Origin: Psychroflexus sediminis
GTDB taxonomy: Bacteria; Bacteroidota; Bacteroidia; Flavobacteriales; Flavobacteriaceae
DNA: 64,000 bases
Assembly: GCF_900099815.1 (NCBI RefSeq)
Contig: NZ_FNCW01000004.1
Location: 186,001-250,000, forward strand
Direction of reading: 5' to 3'
The notes beneath the pieces are model-generated. The model saw nothing but the letters and a program-made list of their open reading frames with translations. It was not told the origin of the DNA and made no database searches. The position numbers were made by a program, and so were the translations under genes. Within the stretch, counting starts at the first letter, position 1; every line of letters starts with the position of its first letter. Positions 7,267-64,000 of this stretch are shown in pieces.

Positions 7267-8298
7267 ATGAATTCAAACTTTAGAAACAGAAGAACACAAC
7301 AAAACAGGACACCAAAACTTAAATTTCTAGTAGCACTTTGTTTTATAGCGCTCTTACACAGCTGTAAATCTTCCCAGGATATTAGCAGCAATGAATCTAC
7401 AGCGGATCCTCAGGTTGTACCAGCAGATTATCAGTATCCAGAGGACGAAACTTTCAAAGTATTATCCTGGAACGTGGAACATTTTGTAGATGCTTACGAC
7501 GATCCTTATATTGATGCCTCCCGGGAGAATGATCCCACTCCTGAAATGGAAAATAAGCTAGCCTATTTGGCTGAAGCCCTGAAAAATGCTGACGCTGATA
7601 TTATCGTACTACAGGAGTTTGAAAGCACAAAGTTTTTGCGAGAAATAGCCAAGGATCATTTGACGGGGATGGGGTATGAATTTTTCGCCAGTGCTCCCAG
7701 TGATGGCTGGTATATGAATGTCGTTTTGATGAGTAAATTCCCCCTGGGCATTCTTTACGCTTATGGAAATGTAACCACACCGGTAGTTGACTACAAGAAT
7801 GATGAAGGGCTTTCTGAAACACAGAATAATTTGAACACGAGAATGTGGTCTATTGAGGTTTTTCCATCCAAAGATTATGACTTTATACTGACAGGTCTTC
7901 ACCTTAAAGCCGGACGCGGTGAACGCAACGAATCCATGAGACTGGGACAGATCAATTTCCTAAAAGACCAGTTTTCACGCTTTGTGGACAGGAATGCTTC
8001 ACAAGACCTGCTGATTGCAGGAGATTTGAACAGCACTCTGGGAAGTCAAGAAATAAAAACTCTAAAAAGAGGTAATACCGAAGGCAATAGTTTCTTCGAT
8101 CCCCTTCCTGAAGAAGTCCTTACCCATCCTTCAGATCAACCTTCCCGAAGACTGGACTACATACTCTTTAACGGGAATATGCAAGACGAATATATACCAG
8201 GAACAGCTAAAGTACCTGAATTATTAGAAGATGAGAAAATGCAGGCAGTAAGCGATCATTTACCTATCGTCATTCAATTCAAAAAAAGTAATCGATAA
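7267..8298 (+). CDS. Endonuclease/exonuclease/phosphatase family lipoprotein
   Basis: A 343-residue secreted protein. Residues about 19-35 are hydrophobic and end LLHSCKSS, a slightly atypical lipobox, so it is probably lipid-anchored in the periplasm or outer membrane. The DNase I/EEP fold is shown by LSWNVEHF, the catalytic Glu in IIVLQEFES, the HLKAGRGERNE segment, the GDLNS motif and a C-terminal SDHLPI with the general-base His. These residues form the metal-dependent phosphodiesterase centre, so the enzyme should be active. The substrate could be nucleic acid, phospholipid or another phosphoester; the sequence does not decide. It is monocistronic. Confidence 0.85.
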   Translation: MNSNFRNRRTQQNRTPKLKFLVALCFIALLHSCKSSQDISSNESTADPQVVPADYQYPEDETFKVLSWNVEHFVDAYDDPYIDASRENDPTPEMENKLAYLAEALKNADADIIVLQEFESTKFLREIAKDHLTGMGYEFFASAPSDGWYMNVVLMSKFPLGILYAYGNVTTPVVDYKNDEGLSETQNNLNTRMWSIEVFPSKDYDFILTGLHLKAGRGERNESMRLGQINFLKDQFSRFVDRNASQDLLIAGDLNSTLGSQEIKTLKRGNTEGNSFFDPLPEEVLTHPSDQPSRRLDYILFNGNMQDEYIPGTAKVPELLEDEKMQAVSDHLPIVIQFKKSNR

Positions 8299-8640
8299 TA
8301 TAACCAAGTAAGAAATCGGATTCATACCCAAAAGAAATTTTTTTTATCAGCTTTCAGCTCCATAAAAAAGCAAAGGGCTGTTTAAATCTAAACCGTCTTA
8401 ATTCTTTTGAAGCATAATTTCAGCTAGACAAATCTTGTTTCGGGTTAAATTTTGAAACTATGGGTAACAAGAAATTGTGGTTTTTTTCGACTTGAATCAA
8501 AAGTGGAATACCTTTTGTAAATAGATTGAGAAGAAATTTTTAAAAAATAGCCTGCCAGGTCTCTTTTAGCATTATTTCAAAAGCAACAGGAGATCTGGAA
8601 GCATCTGGATTCAATCACAATGGCTTTCCTTCAAAAACAA
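8299..8640. other. Gene-free interval before the tRNA repeat
   Basis: About 340 bases of A+T-rich sequence with no supported reading frame. I see no strong terminator or promoter here. It borders the first copy of the tRNA-derived direct repeat. Confidence 0.5.
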
Positions 8641-8697
8641 AAAAACCGACTTCAATTAAGAAATCGGTTTTCGAATAAAGTTGGCCTACTAGGGCTC
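8641..8697. repeat. Partial copy of tRNA-Gln 3' end plus terminator
   Basis: A 57-base direct repeat of 8767-8823, with a period of 126 bases. The last 17 bases (8681-8697) duplicate the 3' end of tRNA-Gln and the rest duplicates the downstream terminator hairpin. The remainder of the tRNA is missing from this copy. Confidence 0.9.
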
Positions 8698-8704
8698 ACT
8701 TCGA

Positions 8705-8722
8705 TCCCGATATTCATCGGGA
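8705..8722. repeat. Short palindrome between the two tRNA-derived repeats
   Basis: TCCCGAT and ATCGGGA form a 7-bp stem around a short loop. It lies inside the spacer that separates the duplicated tRNA ends. Confidence 0.5.
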
Positions 8723-8761
8723 CTCAGCATAAACTTCTCGCCCATGAAAGTTATATCGAGA

Positions 8762-8796
8762 AAGAAAAAAACCGACTTCAATTAAGAAATCGGTTT
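8762..8796 (-). terminator. Terminator of tRNA-Gln
   Basis: On the minus strand an AAACCGA/TCGGTTT stem, with an inner CTT/AAG pairing, is followed by a run of T just downstream of the tRNA. The same hairpin is present in the truncated upstream repeat. Confidence 0.75.
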
Positions 8797-8806
8797 TCGA
8801 ATAAAG

Positions 8807-8879
8807 TTGGCCTACTAGGGCTCGAACCTAGACTCTTCTGGACCAAAACCAGATGTGTTGCCAGTTACACCATAGGCCA
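8807..8879 (-). tRNA. tRNA-Gln (anticodon TTG)
   Basis: On the minus strand TGGCCTA at the 5' end pairs with TAGGCCA at the 3' end (7-bp acceptor stem), with discriminator A at 8807. The anticodon arm is TCTGG-TTTTGGT-CCAGA, which places TTG at positions 34-36 and decodes CAA. The T arm contains GGTTCGAGCCC. CCA is not encoded. A match to TAnnTTTG at 8895-8902 lies just upstream and a terminator lies downstream. Confidence 0.95.
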
Positions 8880-8894
8880 ATAATTATTGGAGTG

Positions 8895-8902
8895 CAAATA
8901 TA
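8895..8902 (-). promoter_or_regulatory. Candidate -7 element for tRNA-Gln
   Basis: On the minus strand TATATTTG is an exact TAnnTTTG match about 16 bases before the mature tRNA 5' end. Confidence 0.5.
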
Positions 8903-9056
8903 AAACTTACTTTTATATGACCAAGCTCTTTTTTAAAATTATTCTTGAAAAAAATAAGTTTGACTTAAAACCTTATTTCAAGTCGTAAATAATAATCAAA
9001 ATCAAGCGTTTATAAGATTTCTTAATTGTTTATTTTCGTCCAAAATTTTTATTTCA

Positions 9057-12000
9057 ATGACAAAGCACGCCTTCTCACTTTGGAACAAACTATTAGGTTG
9101 GTCTGCCTTTTTAGTAGCATTCATTACGTATTATCTCACAGCAGAGCCTACCGCCAGTTTTTGGGATGCCGGTGAATATATTGCTACTTCTGCAAAGCTA
9201 CAGGTAGGACATCCCCCGGGTGCTCCTTTTTATCAAATTTTTGGCGCTTTCTTCTCTATGTTTGCCTCCGATGATAGTCAGATAGCCTTTATGATTAACC
9301 TCATGTCTGGGGTGGCAAGTGCTTTTGCTATTTTGTTTATGTTTTGGTCTATCACCCTGTTATTGAAAAAACTTACAAAAAACATTGAAGTTAAATCTCA
9401 GGCTTCAGACATGGCTATTTTAGCCAGTAGTTTGATTGGTGCGCTCACCTTCACCTTTACAGATAGTTTTTGGTTTAGCGCTGTAGAAGCAGAGGTTTAC
9501 GCGATGGCCGCCTGCCTAATGGCTGCCATGTTTTATGTGGGATTGCTTTGGGAAAGAGATATGCATAAACCCAGAGGTAATCGCTGGTTGATTTTAATTT
9601 GTTTAATCATCGGCCTATCTTTTGGAGTACACTTCATGGGATTACTTACCATTCCTGCCATCGGTTTTTTATATTACTTCAAGAATTACAAAACCATTAC
9701 AGTCAAAAACTTCATAGTTGCGAATTTAGTTGTCGTTGGTATTTTGCTGTTTATCTTTAAACTGCTTCTACCCTACTCCCTAACCTTTTTCGCCAAGATG
9801 GAGGTATTCTTTGTCAATGCCATTGGATTGCCTTTCAATTCCGGAACTATCATAGCCGGTCTACTCGTAATTGCTGGGTTTTATTTTGGTTTGAAGTATA
9901 CAAGACGTAAAAATTATATCCACATCAACACGGTTTTGCTGTGTATTTTATTTGTGTTTATAGGCTTCTCCAGCTGGATTATGCTTCCTATCCGGGCCAA
10001 TGCAGGAACAGTCATCAATGAAAATGATCCCAGTAGTGCTCAGCAACTCCTCGCCTATTATAATCGTGACCAGTACCCGGAAACGCATTTATTTTATGGA
10101 CCTCAGTTTACCGAGATCTTCGCAGGCCTGGATCCCGACAATCCTTACCTGGATGATGACCCCATCTATGAAAAAGATGAGGAAAAAGGGAAATATGTGA
10201 TCATCAATGATTACAAAAATGCCAAGCAAAATTCTGATGCTAAGCATAAGACCCTCCTCCCGAGGATGTGGAGTACACAACATGCCGCCAATTACATGAT
10301 GTTTACTGGTCCCTTGGAGTTTTCGATCAAACCTGAATACAGAGGTGAAGAGGAATTAGTTTCTATCATCAACACATTTAGAGCAGATTACAGGGAAGGA
10401 GAAGTTTCTTCTGAAGGTTATATCAGCTTTTTAAAGCGATTCAATCAATACCTGGATGTACAAAAACCATCTACAGCTTCCAACCTCAACTATCTGTTCG
10501 AATTTCAGATGGGATATATGTACTGGAGATATTTTATGTGGAATTTCGTAGGGCGACAAAATGATAATCAGGGTAAATACAGCAATTTGGAGGGGAATTG
10601 GTTAAGCGGTATCGATTTTATTGATGAAAACAGATTAGGCAGCCAGGAGAATTTACCTTCAGATTTAGCCGAAAATAAAGCACGTAATACTTATTATTTC
10701 TTACCGCTCATCCTGGGACTCATCGGTTTATTTTTTCATGCGTCCAAAGATGTTAAGCGCTTTTGGGTGCTTACCGTATTTTTTCTGTTCACAGGAATAG
10801 CTCTGAAAATTTACCTCAATGAACGCCCTTTTGAACCCAGAGAAAGAGACTATGCGCTTGTAGGATCATTTTATGTATTTGCCATTTGGATTGGAATGGG
10901 TGTTTATGCCCTGTTCCATTATCTAAAACAATATATTACCCCAAAATTAGTAGTCCCTCTCGTAGGTGTGGTTTGCTTATTTGCCGTACCGGTTTTGATG
11001 GCTTCAGAAAATTGGGATGACCATGACCGCTCAGGAAAATATACCACCCTGGCGATGGCCAAAAAATATTTGGATTCTGTAGACAAGAATGCTATTCTCT
11101 TTACCATTGGTGACAACGACACCTTTGCATTATGGTATGCCCAGGAAATCGAAGGCTACAGAACCGACGTTAGAACCATCAATACCAGTCTTTTTGCGAC
11201 AGATTGGTATATAGACCAGATGAGAAGGAAAGCCTATGAAAGCGAACCTATTGAAACTACTCTAAAACATGATGACTATAAATACGGTACAAACGATGCC
11301 GTTTGGTATCAGGAAGATCCCAGAGTAGGTGATACACTTGTGATAGACCAGTTTATAAAATACATCAAAAGTGATAACGAAACCACTAAGGCAGAATTAC
11401 AAAGCGGACAAGTCATCAACACCTTTCCAACTAAAAACATAAGAGTTCCGGTTGACAAGGAACAAGTATTGAAAACAGGTATAGTGAAGCCGGAAGATGC
11501 AGACTTAATTGTCCCTTATATCGATATTAATCTGGAAGATAATTTGATATACAAACCCAATCTGATGATGCTGGATTTACTTGCCAATAACGACTGGGAA
11601 AGACCTATCTACTTCACAGGAGGCAGTTTTAGGGATGAGGATTACCTCTGGATGAAAGATTATCTTCAGCTGGAAGGGGTGACGTATAAGCTTGTGCCTA
11701 TCAAAACCCCGGTCAATCCGGAAAATCCGTTTGATATGGGGCGTATCGATGAAGATAAAATGTACGAGATCGTTATGGACTGGGAATGGGGAAACAGCGG
11801 TAGCGACGACATTTATCACGATCCGGAAACCCGAAAAAATGCCATAACCTACAGAAGCAACCTTGCCCGACTAGTCGAAAAGCTGATTGAAAAAGGAAAA
11901 TTTGATAAAGCTGAAGACATTCTTGACCTGGGCATGAAACATATTCCGGTAGAACATTACCAGTATTACCAGCTGGTTGAACCTTTTGTCACCGGGTACT

Positions 12001-62944: not shown

Positions 62945-62952
62945 TAGCTTTG
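62945..62952 (+). promoter_or_regulatory. Candidate -7 element of the TPP-riboswitch operon
   Basis: TAGCTTTG is an exact TAnnTTTG match that ends nine bases before the riboswitch begins, consistent with an RNA whose 5' end is the riboswitch itself. Confidence 0.6.
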
Positions 62953-62959
62953 GAGCATT

Positions 62960-63040
62960 AATACACGGGGTGCTCTGAGAGGTCAGGGCTGAGAATATAC
63001 CCGAAACCTGATTTGGATAATGCCAACGTAGGGATGTAGA
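62960..63040 (+). promoter_or_regulatory. TPP (THI element) riboswitch
   Basis: The conserved core is present in the right order: GGGGTGCTCTGAGAGG, then GGCTGAGAATATACCC, ACCTGATTTGGATAATGCC and AACGTAGGGA. TACA at 62962-62965 pairs with TGTA at 63035-63038 to close helix P1. The RNA should bind thiamin pyrophosphate and repress the downstream operon. Confidence 0.95.
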
Positions 63041-63111
63041 CTTAGAATACTTTCTATTCCATCGAACCGGTCGTTCGGCTTTCCAAAAGACTCTTTTAAA
63101 ACAATTAGACC

Positions 63112-63834
63112 GTGGAAATAAAGAAAGTAAACCAGCAACTCATACCCGAAACCACACAAACCTGGCAGGGCAGATCGGAGTGGTTTTTCAACAGAAAATA
63201 CACCGACACCTACGAAGAGTATTACGAGGGCCCATATAAACGTGCCGAAGTCTGGCAGAAAAAAATCCTGGAAGAGCTTATTTCCAAAGACAAGCGCGTC
63301 AACACCTTACTCGAATTTGGCTGCGGGACAACCCGCTTTACCCGATGGTGGAAGGATATCGGCATTGAAGCGACCGGGGGAGATATTTCGCCCTTTATGT
63401 TATCCCAGGCTTTACACCGTTTTGACGGTGACCTGGTGATGGCAGATTCCCATTATTTGCCGTTCAAGGACAATACCTTCGATGCCCTGGCCTTTATCAC
63501 CACATTCGAATACTATAAAGATCCCGTAAAAGTGATTCGTGAGGCTGCCCGGGTGGGCAGACACGGTATCATTATGGGTATGATGAACCGAAACACACCC
63601 AAACTGATCAGACGCAGAACCCAGCAGCTCTTTGGGAAAAATGAATTTTATGTGACCGCTACGTTTTACACGCCTCAAACACTGACGAAAGTCATCGATG
63701 AAGCCCTAAAAGGGAGGGAGTATAGCATTGAGTGGACGACTACCGGACTTCCGAAATGGTTCCCGGTTCAAAAATGGAATGTACCGCTTGGAGATTTTTT
63801 TGGATTGTATGTTCAGTTTAAGGATGCCTTATGA
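63112..63834 (+). CDS. SAM-dependent methyltransferase under TPP control
   Basis: A 240-residue class I methyltransferase (Methyltransf_11 type). The SAM site is LLEFGCGTTRFTRWW (motif I), with the acidic residue of motif II in GGDISPFML, then MADSHYLPFKDNTFDAL (motif III-IV). The protein ends with a beta-rich region (IEWTTTGLPKWFPVQKWNVPLG). The start is GTG, 71 bases after the riboswitch; no in-frame ATG lies between. The stop overlaps the ATG of the next gene (ATGA), so the two are translationally coupled. The substrate is unknown but should be linked to thiamin or its precursors. Confidence 0.88.
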   Translation: MEIKKVNQQLIPETTQTWQGRSEWFFNRKYTDTYEEYYEGPYKRAEVWQKKILEELISKDKRVNTLLEFGCGTTRFTRWWKDIGIEATGGDISPFMLSQALHRFDGDLVMADSHYLPFKDNTFDALAFITTFEYYKDPVKVIREAARVGRHGIIMGMMNRNTPKLIRRRTQQLFGKNEFYVTATFYTPQTLTKVIDEALKGREYSIEWTTTGLPKWFPVQKWNVPLGDFFGLYVQFKDAL

Positions 63835-64000
63835 GTGAGCAGTCGGGAAAAATATCACATGAATTTTTTAAGGAATCCTTTTTGGGCAAATGCGGAAAGA
63901 AACGTCCGGAGGTTACTGCCGGACCCCAGTTTGGCGTAGATGTATCCATTATCAATCTGGCCAATGGTCAGGCCATGGCCATGGCCAGCGATCCGCTTTC
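63831..64000 (+). CDS. AIR-synthase-like protein, partial at the window end
   Basis: The reading frame starts at ATG 63831, overlapping the stop of the methyltransferase, and is open to the end of the window (56 complete codons). Its segment GPQFGVDVSIINLANGQAM and AMASDPLS resembles the N-terminal domain of the PurM/HypE/ThiL family of ATP-dependent enzymes, in which a conserved Asp binds magnesium. The rest of the protein is needed for a firm call. It belongs to the TPP-riboswitch operon. It could be a HypE- or ThiL-type kinase relative. Confidence 0.55.
   Translation, partial: MSEQSGKISHEFFKESFLGKCGKKRPEVTAGPQFGVDVSIINLANGQAMAMASDPL

Follow-up and report, generated by a model that had tools for sequence, protein, structure and literature searches.

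The 64 kb stretch of Psychroflexus sediminis DNA analysed here (the window) ends with a TPP riboswitch placed in front of genes that do not make up any familiar thiamin operon, which raises the question of what thiamin-related task these genes carry out. The original prediction described a class I SAM methyltransferase coupled by an ATGA overlap to a gene of the AIR-synthase fold, and both families and the overlap were recovered (Table 1). It also took the two for a pair without any classical thiamin gene; the coupling stands, but the pair proved to be the first half of a four-gene operon whose third gene belongs to the classical ThiE/TenI family, with three ThiE residues lost. The operon is truncated by the window, with gene 2 running off its end and genes 3 and 4 wholly outside, and all three gene junctions are 4-base ATGA overlaps. 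The genome of origin (G000) has a size of 2.97 Mb and is 99.95% complete.

Table 1. Features of the riboswitch-controlled operon. Positions are those of the window, except where L003, the genome stretch around the operon, is named; an L003 position plus 60000 gives the window position.
Feature	Position	Strand	Family or evidence
-7 box TAGCTTTG (TAnnTTTG type), promoter-like	62945..62952	+	sequence match; recurs in related loci
TPP riboswitch aptamer (THI element, RF00059)	62956..63051	+	full-length covariance-model match
Presumed expression platform (aptamer-to-start-codon leader)	63052..63111	+	hairpin and T-run in related loci
Gene 1, class I SAM methyltransferase, 240 aa, GTG start	63112..63834 (L003:3112-3834)	+	PF08241
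Gene 2, PurM/HypE-superfamily protein, 350 aa	63831..64000, cut by window end; whole gene L003:3831-4883 (genome G000:C31)	+	PF00586 and PF02769
Gene 3, ThiE/TenI-like (TMP-TENI), 213 aa	L003:4880-5521, past window end	+	PF02581
Gene 4, Trm112-like, 95 aa	L003:5518-5805, past window end	+	PF03966

The THI element reported upstream of the methyltransferase and the AIR-synthase-like gene was confirmed as a member of RF00059, where it covers the whole covariance model with a score of 68.6 bits against a gathering threshold of 54.3 (E = 2.3e-11), and it is one of two Rfam matches above gathering in the 64 kb. The core columns of the aptamer are invariant among 20 aligned copies; binding of TPP, with an ensuing change in expression, is predicted. 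The promoter motif noted immediately before the element also held up: an exact box of the TAnnTTTG type, which we take to be the Bacteroidota -7 consensus, begins the leader no more than 40 nt ahead of the aptamer core at 53 of the 93 related loci, compared with 1.9 expected from shuffles that preserved base composition only, not dinucleotides. No clear -33 box was seen by eye at the window locus, and a loose two-box promoter pattern occurs across the whole window at chance level (16 versus 15.3 expected). On the 3' side of the aptamer, a terminator-like hairpin of -6 kcal/mol or better followed by a T-run is present in 54 of the 93 loci, compared with 9.6 expected in leaders shuffled in the same way, by base composition and not dinucleotides; this agrees with an operon expressed under TPP shortage, and the combination of hairpin and T-run would be appropriate, in many species, to a transcriptional OFF switch. 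The leader of the window itself has no clear terminator between the aptamer and gene 1 and folds no better than its shuffles (z = -0.13). Scans of this leader returned a single promoter-like site where 0.9 were expected; terminator-like sites numbered two against an expected 0.6, and both fall outside the interval between aptamer and gene.

The 93 loci (L003, L009, and L012-L102) comprise the window's own, 80 found by similarity to the methyltransferase, and 12 found by similarity to the HypE-like gene 2. The 80 are the best of 152 relatives, all Bacteroidota by title, from a scan of genome contigs with the methyltransferase alignment. Aptamer, methyltransferase, and HypE-like gene follow one another on one strand and in the same order at 93 of 93 loci, so the recurrence of a THI element before the same pair in other Bacteroidota, which the original prediction had named as a check, was found throughout; the figure holds for close relatives, because the best 80 of 152 methyltransferase relatives were used, and the set includes some close kin and two Arenibacter genomes that contribute two copies each. 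The aptamers were searched with our own covariance model, R1, which was built on 20 of them and leaves 73 of the 93 outside (L026 enters through its identical twin L010), and R1 matches upstream of the methyltransferase at every locus. Gene 3 is present at 91 loci, and the Trm112-like gene was recovered at 84 by clustering and at 7 by HMM, the other two loci (L016 and L087) stopping at a contig edge; all four genes are found in every one of the 91 loci whose contig extends far enough. A fifth operon gene was not seen, as every other neighbour family is limited to 8 or fewer of the 93 loci within the flanks examined (about 1.5 kb in L092-L102).

Within the phylum the operon is sparsely distributed. 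A scan with gene 2 alone as query was positive in 13 of 395 genomes, its own genome counted, and the 11 new loci that it yielded also carry genes 1, 3, and 4 and the aptamer. At E 1e-10 the operon was not found in the 20 same-genus genomes listed, three of which are at most 80% complete. The same search matched 4 of 149 genomes: besides its own these were G048 and G133, and the fourth gave a weak, partial match with 26% identity. In a tree of the methyltransferase, whose bootstrap had not settled, the window's copy grouped with copies from Flavobacteriaceae, Saprospiraceae, a Porphyromonadaceae MAG, and Chitinophagaceae (support 99/98), and seven other Arenibacter copies were placed apart from it, beside Algoriphagus alkaliphilus. 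This mixture of families indicates lateral transfer, and the cassette is self-contained and appears to move between families. Carriage on plasmids was considered and rejected, the methyltransferase having no match in PLSDB at E 1e-40. The two genomes with two copies are Arenibacter sp. F26102 (L063 and L070) and Arenibacter arenosicollis (L053 and L078), where each copy has its own riboswitch. At L024 a second TPP-aptamer-like match (8820-8912, minus strand; 40.2 bits with R1) lies on the opposite strand, downstream of the operon.

The protein encoded by gene 1 is a class I SAM methyltransferase by its score against PF08241 (63.9 bits, gathering 21.2, E = 2.3e-17) and shows the strongest conservation among the first three: 111 of its 240 positions reach at least 97% in 93 homologues, compared with 69 of 350 in gene 2 and 28 of 213 in gene 3. 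Its best solved relatives are the 18S rRNA guanine-N7 methyltransferases, which presumably work together with Trm112, a protein whose methyltransferase partners are Bud23, Trm9, Trm11, and Mtq2. Gene 4 is Trm112-like, scoring 26.5 bits against a PF03966 gathering threshold of 22, and falls below the NCBIfam equivalog for archaeal Trm112 (46.7 versus 77). A complex of the two proteins is predicted from their shared operon and from the solved relatives of gene 1. Genes 1 and 4 resemble Trm112 and its partners in family and nearest relatives, but differ from them in that gene 4 sits in a TPP-riboswitch operon and carries Asp in place of one Cys of CPxC, which we take to be the usual Trm112 motif, in 85 of 85 alignment rows (L003 being entered twice).

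Gene 2 contains both the N- and C-terminal AIRS domains and lies below every equivalog cut-off listed, including those of HypE (TIGR02124; 74.9 versus 251.6 bits) and ThiL (TIGR01379; 68 versus 184 bits). By sequence and by predicted fold, its nearest relatives are HypE, with 3vyt as the best fold match, followed by ThiL and SelD. Domains and fold are thus those shared by ThiL, HypE, SelD, and PurM; unlike ThiL and HypE, gene 2 remains far under the equivalog cut-offs, and it has none of the ThiL signature blocks, including GGEDYELLF, in an alignment to three of the four ThiL loci fetched. The idea that gene 2 is the cell's ThiL was ruled out, as a separate canonical ThiL is encoded elsewhere in each of the 39 operon genomes compared below. 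Members of the PurM superfamily commonly use ATP to activate an oxygen, so that ring closure or amide activation is the natural guess for gene 2, and the ATP-dependent step that had been proposed for the PurM-fold protein stays plausible.

Gene 3 is a member of the ThiE/TenI sequence family (PF02581, E = 4.7e-31), and its predicted structure (pLDDT 95.4) adopts the same fold, with ThiE 2tps as the best match in the PDB (TM 0.79). The GGI and the Ser of what we take to be the ThiE phosphate site are retained. In contrast to ThiE, however, gene 3 scores 91.3 bits against a TIGR00693 cut-off of 145.1, and three residues present in 8 of 8 genuine ThiE proteins compared, R39, K41, and K138 (L120 numbering, in which K138 aligns to Bacillus subtilis K159), are replaced. 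These residues presumably form the site for the HMP-PP diphosphate; their positions are occupied by W in 91 of 91 copies, by N (64) or H (25) in 89 of 91, and by A (54) or S (18) in 72 of 91, respectively. Gene 3 has instead its own invariant residues, W43, C134, C145, and N115 (91 of 91). An ordinary ThiE was thus ruled out by score and by the replaced residues. The usual substrate of TenI, the product of ThiG, is not expected in 36 of the 39 operon genomes, the window's own included, because ThiG above 300 bits is absent there.

The thiamin pathway genes of the 39 operon genomes, to which the genome of L029 does not belong, were compared with those of 40 genomes without the operon that were picked by handle and not at random. 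ThiC was found in 3 of 39 operon genomes and 13 of 40 controls (p = 0.010), and ThiG above 300 bits in the same three operon genomes and 14 of 40 controls (p = 0.005), both p values coming from Fisher tests that ignore phylogeny. ThiD above 130 bits occurred in 4 of 39 versus 18 of 40, ThiE over its cut-off in 2 of 39 versus 17 of 40, with a third operon genome just below, and TPK in 11 of 39 versus 18 of 40; in addition to gene 3, four further operon genomes encode another ThiE-like protein, which scores 104-126 bits. Operon genomes therefore mostly lack known thi steps, as the original prediction had anticipated, with ThiC missing from 36, ThiG from 36, and ThiD from 35 of the 39, and these gaps, together with an aptamer at every locus, support its assignment of a thiamin-related function. 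THI4 at E 1e-20 was found in 0 of 39 operon genomes and 1 of 40 controls, and a THI5-like gene, searched with one query protein at E 1e-30 that a distant THI5 could escape, in 0 of 39 and 3 of 40; at these thresholds both were rejected as hidden partners of the operon.

The canonical ThiL showed the opposite distribution, exceeding its cut-off in all 39 operon genomes versus 32 of 40 controls (p = 0.005, Fisher test ignoring phylogeny). ThiL converts TMP to TPP, and a cell that takes up thiamin and phosphorylates it with TPK alone needs no ThiL. Among genomes with TPK and without ThiC and ThiG, ThiL was kept in 11 of 11 with the operon versus 3 of 11 without it (G330, G365, and G530; p = 0.001, Fisher test ignoring phylogeny), which suggests TMP as what the operon supplies. 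The genome of the window encodes a ThiL of 305 bits and has no match to ThiC, THI4 (E 1e-20), TPK, or the THI5-like query, and no ThiE over the cut-off; ThiG and ThiD gave partial matches only, of about 25 bits, and the genes of the classical de novo pathway (ThiC, ThiG, and ThiD) were not recovered from it.

Eleven operon-free genomes (G001, G013, G020, G176, G248, G252, G260, G263, G275, G310, and G341) have ThiL without TPK, ThiC, ThiG above 300 bits, ThiD above 130 bits, or ThiE over its cut-off; two of them contain a THI5-like gene and one a ThiE-like protein below the cut-off. Some other source of TMP must exist there, since ThiL is kept without the known TMP genes, and an unrecognised thiamin kinase is likely.

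Uptake is suggested by the genes that follow other TPP riboswitches. Homologues of the TonB-dependent receptor of the window's genome lie near such riboswitches in 22 of 33 contexts from operon genomes and in 5 of 7 from genomes without the operon (40 fetched). The one other TPP-like match in the window's genome (L004:7599-7698, contig C26) scores 38.6 bits, under the cut-off, and lies upstream of this receptor gene (7793-10168), which is the probable thiamin importer; a receptor gene of this type is tied to thiamin import in Bacteroides in the part of the work consulted (PMC5613172). As TonB- and PnuT-type genes occur at their other TPP riboswitches, uptake of thiamin or of a related compound by the operon bacteria is probable.

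The best explanation of these data, to which we assign a probability of about one half, is that the operon encodes a TPP-repressed, laterally spread route from a scavenged vitamer to thiamin monophosphate, with ThiL acting thereafter. TPP would turn the four genes off and its shortage would turn them on, whereupon a scavenged thiamin-related vitamer outside the reach of the known HMP and thiazole routes would be converted to TMP, the end product to which the association with ThiL points, and the separate ThiL of the cell would phosphorylate TMP to TPP. The Trm112-like protein would keep the methyltransferase active, the HypE/PurM-fold protein may, like its relatives, spend ATP on activating an oxygen of the substrate, of the amide, formamide, or phosphate type, and gene 3 would bind a phosphorylated thiazole- or thiamin-like molecule without the normal condensation with HMP-PP. 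FAMP and aminomethylpyrimidine are candidate substrates only; both are thiamin degradation products used by plankton, the deformylated form being the one favoured for bacterioplankton, according to the portion of the study available (PMC10470507). A bolder proposal, which we put forward as tentative and rather improbable, is a new B1 route in which the thiazolium ring would be closed directly on a pyrimidine-bearing N-formyl/thio precursor to give TMP. In such a route the PurM/HypE-fold protein would perform an ATP-dependent cyclodehydration of the AIR-synthase type, a group would be contributed or masked by the methyltransferase once activated by the Trm112-like protein, and the phosphorylated product would sit in the altered ThiE-like barrel; HMP-PP, the ThiE condensation, and ThiG would all be bypassed.

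Several observations count against the route from a scavenged vitamer to TMP. The eleven operon-free genomes that keep ThiL without the known TMP genes must have some other TMP source, the 11 operon genomes with TPK could live on thiamin alone, G330, G365, and G530 retain TPK and ThiL without the operon, and three operon genomes (G537, G546, and G556) hold ThiC, ThiG, ThiD-type, and ThiE-type genes alongside it; moreover, the leader of the window lacks the clear terminator seen elsewhere and folds no better than its shuffles, and the leaf-bacteria study cited below, which reports ThiC and ThiG in all 21 of its thiamin prototrophs, also counts on this side. Disposal of damaged thiamin, one of the roles floated in the original prediction, has become less likely, since the terminator-like hairpins fit expression when TPP is short and the link to ThiL points to the making of TMP.

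Intracellular repair or recycling of damaged thiamin phosphates, in which ring-opened, oxidised, or otherwise broken TMP or TPP is mended and no vitamer is imported, would fit the same genetics, that is, TPP control, a ThiE-like binding fold, and the link to ThiL, and an ATP-dependent closure of the ring-opened N-formyl thiol form by a PurM-type enzyme would be chemically sensible. Such repair should benefit every thiamin user, yet the operon is scarce where the de novo pathway exists, as the ThiC counts show, and was found in 13 of 395 genomes in the phylum, its own counted, and not in the 20 same-genus genomes at E 1e-10; we therefore consider it unlikely.

A complete de novo route to TMP, taking the place of ThiC and ThiG and requiring no source of B1, would account for the 36 of 39 operon genomes without these two genes, for the absence of THI4 and the universal presence of ThiL among them, and for a cassette that is self-contained and appears mobile between families. 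Four genes seem few for the making of both rings, however, and the TonB receptor homologues in 22 of 33 riboswitch contexts suggest uptake. ThiC and ThiG were, in addition, reported in 100% of 21 thiamin prototrophs in a study of leaf bacteria, which, in the part consulted, thus shows no thiamin-free growth by another route (PMC9666465). We regard this explanation as improbable.

Ordinary salvage by divergent enzymes, with gene 2 as a thiamin or TMP kinase and gene 3 as the thiamin phosphate synthase, draws on the 68 bits of gene 2 against ThiL, the 91 bits of gene 3 against ThiE, and the agreement of the predicted folds. Both scores are far under the curated cut-offs (184 and 145), canonical ThiL is encoded elsewhere in 39 of 39 genomes, gene 2 lacks the ThiL signatures, and the Arg and Lys residues of ThiE are replaced in gene 3. 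ThiD, which is required for HMP-PP, is missing in 35 of 39 operon genomes, and this explanation, which we likewise regard as improbable, has no place for the methyltransferase and the Trm112-like protein. Synthesis of a methylated thiamin or antivitamin by the operon, or methylation of some other target under TPP control, is very unlikely: the conservation of gene 1 and its dedicated Trm112-like partner speak for it, but a TPP-repressed switch is ill-suited to a pathway that consumes TPP, and the association with ThiL and the general absence of the de novo pathway stand against it.

The TPP-riboswitch operons of Bacteroides thetaiotaomicron, thiSEGCHF-tenI, OMthi, and pnuT-tnr3, include none that resembles the four-gene operon in the part of the work available (PMC5613172). 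They are alike in having a TPP aptamer in front and a ThiE/TenI-family gene inside and in belonging to Bacteroidota, but the operon described here has no ThiC- or ThiG-type gene, contains a methyltransferase, a HypE-like, and a Trm112-like gene, and occurs mostly where ThiC and ThiG are absent. Among the matches listed in a literature search, with most subscription papers and preprints outside its scope, none described such an operon by title or start of abstract, and thiamin combined with AIR synthase and riboswitch gave no match. A reconstruction of human gut genomes finds the known vitamin routes nearly complete and counts missing genes and unknown routes among the problems that remain, in the excerpt consulted (PMC6593275). 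Microbial communities are shaped by B1 auxotrophy, and the TMP supply of these Bacteroidota is left unexplained by the routes covered here. A conserved, laterally spread, TPP-regulated cassette found mostly without ThiC and ThiG is a compact and testable candidate for the missing route, and, if this is true, bacterial Trm112-like and HypE-like proteins would gain a role in small-molecule metabolism.

Two further arrangements were observed at other TPP riboswitches. In five operon genomes (G458, G532, G540, G544, and G550) such a riboswitch is followed by a PnuC/PnuT-type transporter gene and a gene for an acyl-CoA-dehydrogenase-like flavoprotein (L131, L140, L146, L151, and L155, the families being read on L155 and assigned to the other four by similarity); the flavoprotein could act ahead of the enzymes of the four-gene operon. 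In the same-genus genome G001, which gave no matches to ThiC or ThiE and weak ones only to ThiG and ThiD, a TPP riboswitch stands directly before a THI5/NMT1-like gene (L160:441-1379; PF09084, 163 bits) with homologues in G020 and G455. The encoded protein has no obvious signal peptide by eye, and riboswitch and gene together may represent another B1 function.
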